64,000 nt of DNA from Halosimplex litoreum. GTDB taxonomy: Archaea; Halobacteriota; Halobacteria; Halobacteriales; Haloarculaceae. The DNA lies in the NCBI RefSeq assembly GCF_016065055.1, contig NZ_CP065856.1, forward strand, positions 2,789,836 through 2,853,835, given 5' to 3'. Below the pieces are notes generated by a model, which was not told the DNA's origin, did no database searches, and saw only the letters and a list, made by a program, of their open reading frames with translations. A program made the translations under genes and the position numbers. Positions 53,001-53,528 of this stretch are shown here, piece after piece (the first letter of the stretch is position 1; every line of letters begins with the position of its first letter).

Positions 53001-53142
53001 GCGTCGTCAGTGGTCGGGGTCCGCCGTGTACGTTGCGGTCGATGGGTTGGAGCAGTCGTCAAAGTGAACGCGGACGACGGCGAATCCGCGACCGCGACAC
53101 CCGTCTGAACCGCGGACGGCGTGAAAACCGCTCGAACAGTCG

Positions 53143-53528
53143 CCGCTACCGCGACCGCGCTCGTGATCGGAACCGCGAACAGCGTGAAAGCCCCCGCGTG
53201 CTCCGGTCGCGCGCCTCGCTGCGCGCTTCACTCGCTCCGCTCGTTGCAGTGCTTGCGTCGTCGTGCTTCCCGGAGCACGCGGCCCCTTTCATTCCCACCC
53301 GTGTCGGCTGGTCGGACAGTCTATGCGGGCGGGAATGAAAGGGGCCGCCGTCTCGACGAACCCGGCCGACGTAAGCACCACAGGGCAGAGGCCTCGCGAG
53401 CGAAGTGAGCGAGGACGGCGCCCGAGGAGCGCAACGAGGCCCGGGAGTCGAGACGGCGGGGGCTTTCACGCTGTCCGCGGTTCCGGTTTAGTCGGCAGTC
53501 GCGGTCCGGTCGGCGGTCGCGGTAGCGG
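53143..53528. repeat. Nested inverted-repeat element (about 386 bp)
   Basis: Four inverted-repeat pairs are nested inside one another: CCGCTACCGCGACCGC at 53143-53158 with its complement at 53513-53528; a 30-bp pair at 53168-53197 and 53456-53485 with one mismatch (contains AGCGTGAAAGCCCCCGC); a 12-bp pair CGCGTGCTCCGG/CCGGAGCACGCG at 53195-53206 and 53270-53281; and a 22-bp pair at 53280-53301 and 53326-53347 with one mismatch (GGCCCCTTTCATTCCC). The interior has TCGCT/AGCGA-rich palindromic sequence. No coding frame with support lies in it. Confidence 0.85.

Follow-up and report, generated by a model that had tools for sequence, protein, structure and literature searches.

The 64,000-nucleotide stretch of Halosimplex litoreum DNA analysed here (the window) carries two different ~135-nt hairpin units placed back to back as an inverted pair, or heterodimer, in an intergenic region bounded by a GNAT gene on one side and an MFS gene on the other. 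With a probability of roughly 55%, we read this pair, along with its many relatives, as members of a family of structured, interspersed repeats that is specific to Halobacteria and behaves like REP/BIME. In this reading the G-rich strand would function in single-stranded, folded form, RNA being the likeliest, and the stems would be selected for their structure and corrected arm against arm at the DNA level.

A first-pass annotation of the window had described four inverted-repeat pairs nested within 53143-53528, all of which are present, and had proposed that the whole can fold into one large cruciform or RNA. The fold is indeed strong, at -283.6 kcal/mol for the region against -216.6 +/- 6.6 in dinucleotide shuffles (z = -10.2), but what forms is an outer stem that bears two different hairpins and a central one. 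From the left, the element runs through AACAGCGTGAAAGCCCC, hairpin A, the central hairpin GCCCCTTTCATTCCCACCC / GGGCGGGAATGAAAGGGGC, hairpin B and GGGGCTTTCACGCTGT, with the following features:

53178-53475, unstranded: core of the whole element, an inverted pair of two hairpin units between the terminal inverted repeats AACAGCGTGAAAGCCCC and GGGGCTTTCACGCTGT; ~20 further copies were compared by eye
53171-53305, minus strand: hairpin unit A, G-rich, minus being the candidate functional strand (covariance model, contig 2843006-2843140, minus, 148.6 bits, E 2.1e-29, unit A itself being included in the training alignment of the model)
53322-53482, plus strand: hairpin unit B, G-rich, plus being the candidate functional strand (covariance model, contig 2843157-2843317, plus, 116.6 bits, E 2.5e-22)
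53195-53206, plus strand: variable stem of unit A, 5' arm CGCGTGCTCCGG
53270-53281, plus strand: variable stem of unit A, 3' arm CCGGAGCACGCG
53346-53357, plus strand: variable stem of unit B, arm CGCCGTCTCGAC
53447-53458, plus strand: variable stem of unit B, arm GTCGAGACGGCG
53282-53300, plus strand: central hairpin, left arm GCCCCTTTCATTCCCACCC
53327-53345, plus strand: central hairpin, right arm GGGCGGGAATGAAAGGGGC
53249-53259, plus strand: conserved loop motif of unit A, GTGCTTRCGTC
53368-53378, minus strand: conserved loop motif of unit B (GACGTAAGCAC on plus)
53143-53158, plus strand: outermost flanking arm CCGCTACCGCGACCGC, paired with 53513-53528; a genus-level flank outside the class-wide unit
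53513-53528, plus strand: outermost flanking arm, partner of 53143-53158
53107-53126, plus strand: additional, incomplete terminal repeat lying ~70 bp upstream of the element, with a similar arrangement at loci L046, L048 and L049

The variable stems of both hairpins are perfect over 12 bp, that of hairpin B being a fifth pair perhaps not separated in the first-pass annotation, and the apical part is longer in unit B. The outermost 16-nt arms match at 100% and sit in a GACCGC-rich flank typical of the genus, while the 29-nt arms at 53169-53197 and 53456-53484 carry one mismatch. The recurrence of part of an arm just outside the element was confirmed by the partial copy at 53107-53126. In the window (53107-53177) and at the same three loci, an incomplete second terminal repeat precedes a spacer of similar make-up, CTCGAACAG..ACCGC..GGAACCGC, and it looks as if one end had been duplicated. 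Elsewhere in this genome, tandem arrays with a period of ~15-24 and 5-8 copies adjoin the element in the flanks of L038, L040 and L044, and at L038 and L040 the array unit resembles the sequence just beyond the terminal repeat.

The suspicion that the unit is repeated was borne out by a search of the own genome (one contig, 4.16 Mb), which revealed 36 units at ~21 loci. A two-part unit motif, with two matches in the window and none in any of 100 shuffles, was compared with 84,980 genomes (species), and among the matches listed all were haloarchaeal; many haloarchaeal plasmids also carry matches to the unit. Counterparts in relatives, which the first-pass annotation had proposed looking for, proved abundant: a covariance model built from 59 units detected the unit in 126 of the 145 sampled Halobacteria genomes, with at least 23 units per genome in many of them, and in 0 of ~100 sampled genomes of the same phylum outside Halobacteria. 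The units are ~105-135 nt long, mostly intergenic, and occur solo or as inverted heterodimers, an opposite-orientation unit lying near 120 of 229. A phage or viral origin is ruled against by the negative results in INPHARED phage records (no match to the unit) and in IMG/VR contigs (no match to the exact pattern). Rfam at gathering score produced no family match over the element at 13 loci, and its sole hit in the window, to a microRNA, fell below threshold (30 of 100 bits). Within the open-access literature, no paper prints the motif or describes the family, the motif letters matched unrelated papers only, and the work found on haloarchaeal repeats concerns PATEs and SMRs only. As far as found in that literature, the hairpin repeat family is previously undescribed, and a prior description is possible.

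On the G-rich strand, the unit consensus reads 5'-GGGYGGGAMTGAAAGGGGC - S1 - GAA - S2 - AAGCAC ... GCGCAGCGAG - S2' - GA - S1' - GGGGCTTTC-3', where S1 is the variable stem, and the conserved ends of the unit are GAAAGCCCC / GCCCCTTTC. RNAalifold, applied to the unit alignment, returned one long irregular hairpin with 34 consensus pairs; compensatory changes, whose absence the first-pass annotation had named as a refutation alongside a single copy and a lack of counterparts in relatives, are present in 25 of these, both sides having changed in some sequence with pairing kept. Turnover is evident in S1, a stem of 10-12 bp with 163 distinct 10-mers among 216 units, whose pairs are Watson-Crick in 2141 of 2247 cases (~95%, a value somewhat inflated because the unit filter demanded at least 7 of 10 pairs if the GTGCTT motif was present and 9 otherwise). 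At L067 and L068, for example, the loops are 94% alike and the stems differ almost at random. Outside S1, a C4 block that faces another C4 is conserved (on the complementary strand, G4 faces G4); inside S1, the GAA/GA, AAGCAC and GCGCAGCGAG motifs are conserved. A second recurrent insert, consisting of two small variable-stem hairpins (...TGTCG-TTCGAAAGA..TCTTTCG-TGATGACGA-GAGAG..CTCTCTCGAACCACG...), occupies a similar place in the apical loop of about a dozen units from different genera (L053, L006, L005, L047, L102, L121, L123, L145, L169, L175).

Read on the G-rich strand, the mismatches comprise 135 G.U against 40 A.C (bootstrap ratio 2.4-4.9, in counts that ignore kinship) and 92 purine-purine against 38 pyrimidine-pyrimidine. 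Because the covariance model itself favours G.U, S1 was recounted without it, which gave a G.U:A.C ratio of 27:7 in solo units (p = 0.0008) and a non-significant 13:7 in dimers (S1 alone, p = 0.26); over all helices, dimers gave 46:14. Covariation and strand-specific wobble, which together characterize a structured RNA, are both present in these data, again with kinship ignored in the counts. This strand asymmetry of the mismatches points to a G-rich strand that functions in folded, single-stranded form, for which RNA is the simplest reading and a probable one, single-stranded DNA also being possible. Of the structural RNA put forward in the first-pass annotation, structure with compensatory change is strongly supported, and the folded strand itself would most likely be RNA. 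Wobble amounts to ~3%, which is rare for a normal RNA family and equally compatible with arm correction at the DNA level and with selection on RNA.

Of 69 solo units that have no downstream pairing partner, 51 retain the GGGNGGG motif, and from this retention we venture a bolder guess. The family could be a class-wide haloarchaeal RNA element, each genome holding tens of copies. Its four conserved G-runs (GGGYGGGAMTGAAAGGGG - hairpin - GGGG) would fold into a quadruplex in the potassium-rich cytosol, the variable hairpin serving as the third loop; the element would act in the leaders of downstream genes, and its copy-specific stems would stay paired through continual template switching. We regard this as speculative and distinctly improbable. 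Solo units whose G-rich strand points into a gene of the same direction outnumber the others by 48 to 25, a weak excess that carries little weight given the crude rule by which the ORFs were called. A terminator or REP-like 3' element was rejected on the basis of gene-orientation classes, the counts being near background. Some tens of bases downstream of many solo units from different genera (L056, L057, L070, L075, L105), a conserved CTCCCCARCCG box was also observed (e.g. CCTCCCCAGCCG).

Comparison of sites among species revealed how individual copies have changed. The window site, between a small ORF and the MFS gene, is occupied in at least three congeners (genomes G006, G005 and G004, with aligned flanks 79-89% identical), and G002 has an element there too, judged by position. 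The stems at this site mostly differ: the A stem is CGCGTGCTCCGG here, GACGCGTTCGAC in G006 and CGCTCGCTCCGG in G005 and G004, and the B stem CGCCGTCTCGAC is common to the window and G004. Seven of the nine fetched G006 sites correspond to sites of the own genome, with flanks ~87-93% identical, and many element sites are old and common to more than one species. At one of them (L045/L203), the G006 element has the same two stems and is 94.8% identical, and the whole of it is inverted relative to the flanks; the G005 element at the same site has double changes that leave the pairs intact, and its single mismatch is a wobble when read on the G-rich strand. This in-place inversion lends support to the recombination site of the first-pass annotation, in the sense of recombination or rearrangement at the element. 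The loop alone is inverted between intact arms in ~7 of 275 units (some of the seven recognised by eye among units that automatic classification had not resolved), a signature that template switching (PMC8794818) would leave, as would recombination between arms. At orthologous sites, the elements are in many cases not mutual nearest relatives and resemble one another no more than copies from different sites do, and the stem pair of the window recurs nearly unchanged elsewhere in G002 (L009), observations that suggest ectopic exchange between copies. Rapid change in place stays an alternative, because the neighbouring intergenic DNA has diverged beyond alignment.

Under the preferred reading of a structured repeat, the G-rich strand would become RNA through transcription from the flanking genes. 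The repeat would have no protein of its own and, in the manner of REP/BIME, would persist as old intergenic copies, most of them fixed, with copying to new sites a rare event. Selection on structure may keep the arms paired during letter turnover, and template switching or recombination between arms or between copies at the DNA level may assist the pairing and also give rise to the inversions.

The explanations that compete with this reading concern chiefly how the copies spread. An ordinary MITE, i.e. a non-autonomous DNA transposon bounded by terminal inverted repeats (AACAGCGTGAAAG...CTTTCACGCTGTT) and served in trans by a host transposase, would account for the dispersed copies, for their occurrence on plasmids and for sites occupied in one species and element-free in another, and the clear, clade-specific terminal inverted repeats (AACAGCGTGAAAG) agree with the MITE-like character proposed in the first-pass annotation. 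We nevertheless consider it unlikely. In the own genome, a search with the end motif gave 38 sites, all 38 at short elements, a longer parent transposon sharing these ends was not found there, and around 120 loci no neighbouring protein family was enriched. Most of the fetched G006 sites are common to the own genome; at eight candidate empty sites in two species, most flanks were found, the intergenic DNA was too diverged for clean junctions and no target duplication was seen. At the G006 site L238, corresponding to L044, the element is missing and its right-end GGCTGTT remains, which suggests element loss rather than an ancestral empty site. Stems that are paired yet copy-specific would also be unexpected in a recently spread MITE. 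The matching transposase that the first-pass annotation had suggested looking for did not appear among Y1 enzymes: Y1_Tnp (PF01797) occurs in 13 of the 17 genomes in which no units were detected versus 10 of 18 with at least 20 units, eight high-copy genomes are without any Y1_Tnp, and Y1 transposase was rejected as the mover since its presence is uncorrelated with copy number. These figures also weigh against repeats of the REPIN type that a Y1 transposase (RAYT / IS200-like) would mobilize via single-stranded hairpins, an explanation that would otherwise suit the single-strand asymmetry and the intergenic inverted dimers with different stems, an arrangement reported for bacterial REP heterodimers (PMC3733652). 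Neither a link to a RAYT / Y1_Tnp partner, as in the GTAG type, nor a GTAG or CGTC tag at the unit ends or in the consensus was found, the unit is several-fold longer than a REP, and this origin appears very improbable.

A different alternative dispenses with RNA: the element would be a hairpin or cruciform at the DNA level only, with both strands mattering, the arms staying perfect through template switching or hairpin repair under little or no RNA selection, and the whole being a by-product or a chromosome-structure element. The scarcity of wobble, the near symmetry of S1 in dimers, and the inversion of loops and of whole elements point in this direction, loop inversion being a mark of template switching (PMC8794818). 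However, solo units, and dimers in their S3 helix, are strand-asymmetric, which speaks for a single acting strand, and arm copying would erase the strongly conserved internal-loop motifs and the C4/C4 mismatch block unless these were selected, so that we hold a purely DNA-level element to be rather doubtful.

If the structured-repeat reading is right, most haloarchaeal genomes contain an unnamed structured repeat absent from Rfam. The more than 200 units studied here, and probably thousands in public genomes, would form a natural record of letter change in stems with pairing kept, in which orthologous sites let template switching be tested against stepwise selection, and the covariance model lets annotators mask or name these regions.

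Hairpins that vary in sequence and keep their structure are known from integron attC sites. Like the PATEs and SMRs of Haloquadratum, the present elements are short, dispersed haloarchaeal repeats, too short for a transposase gene. PATEs are reported to be devoid of terminal inverted repeats and to have near-terminal palindromes related to IS605 ends, and SMRs to have terminal inverted repeats, no target duplication and an unknown mover, their copies being commonly >95% identical within a type (PMC3119063); by these descriptions the present copies differ, being ~70-80% alike, with terminal inverted repeats and no link to IS605 found. Compensatory changes of several bases at once, and loops inverted while their arms stay intact, recall the template-switch hairpins described in rRNA and microRNA genes (PMC8794818), whereas here template switching would act in a dispersed archaeal repeat with rapid stem turnover, and whole elements also invert. 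Further parallels lie with REP/BIME/REPIN, with which the family shares intergenic multicopy hairpins, frequent inverted dimers often with differing stems, compensatory stem changes and a repeat without a protein inside. A REP, however, is a short hairpin with a 5-13 bp stem, 20-40 bp in total and with a GTAG or CGTC tag at one end (PMC3733652), whereas the haloarchaeal unit has several conserved internal loops and several times that length, is confined to Halobacteria in the samples searched and has stems nearly unique to each copy. A MITE is not established, and the haloarchaeal repeat, without being a member of the REP/BIME dimers, resembles them.
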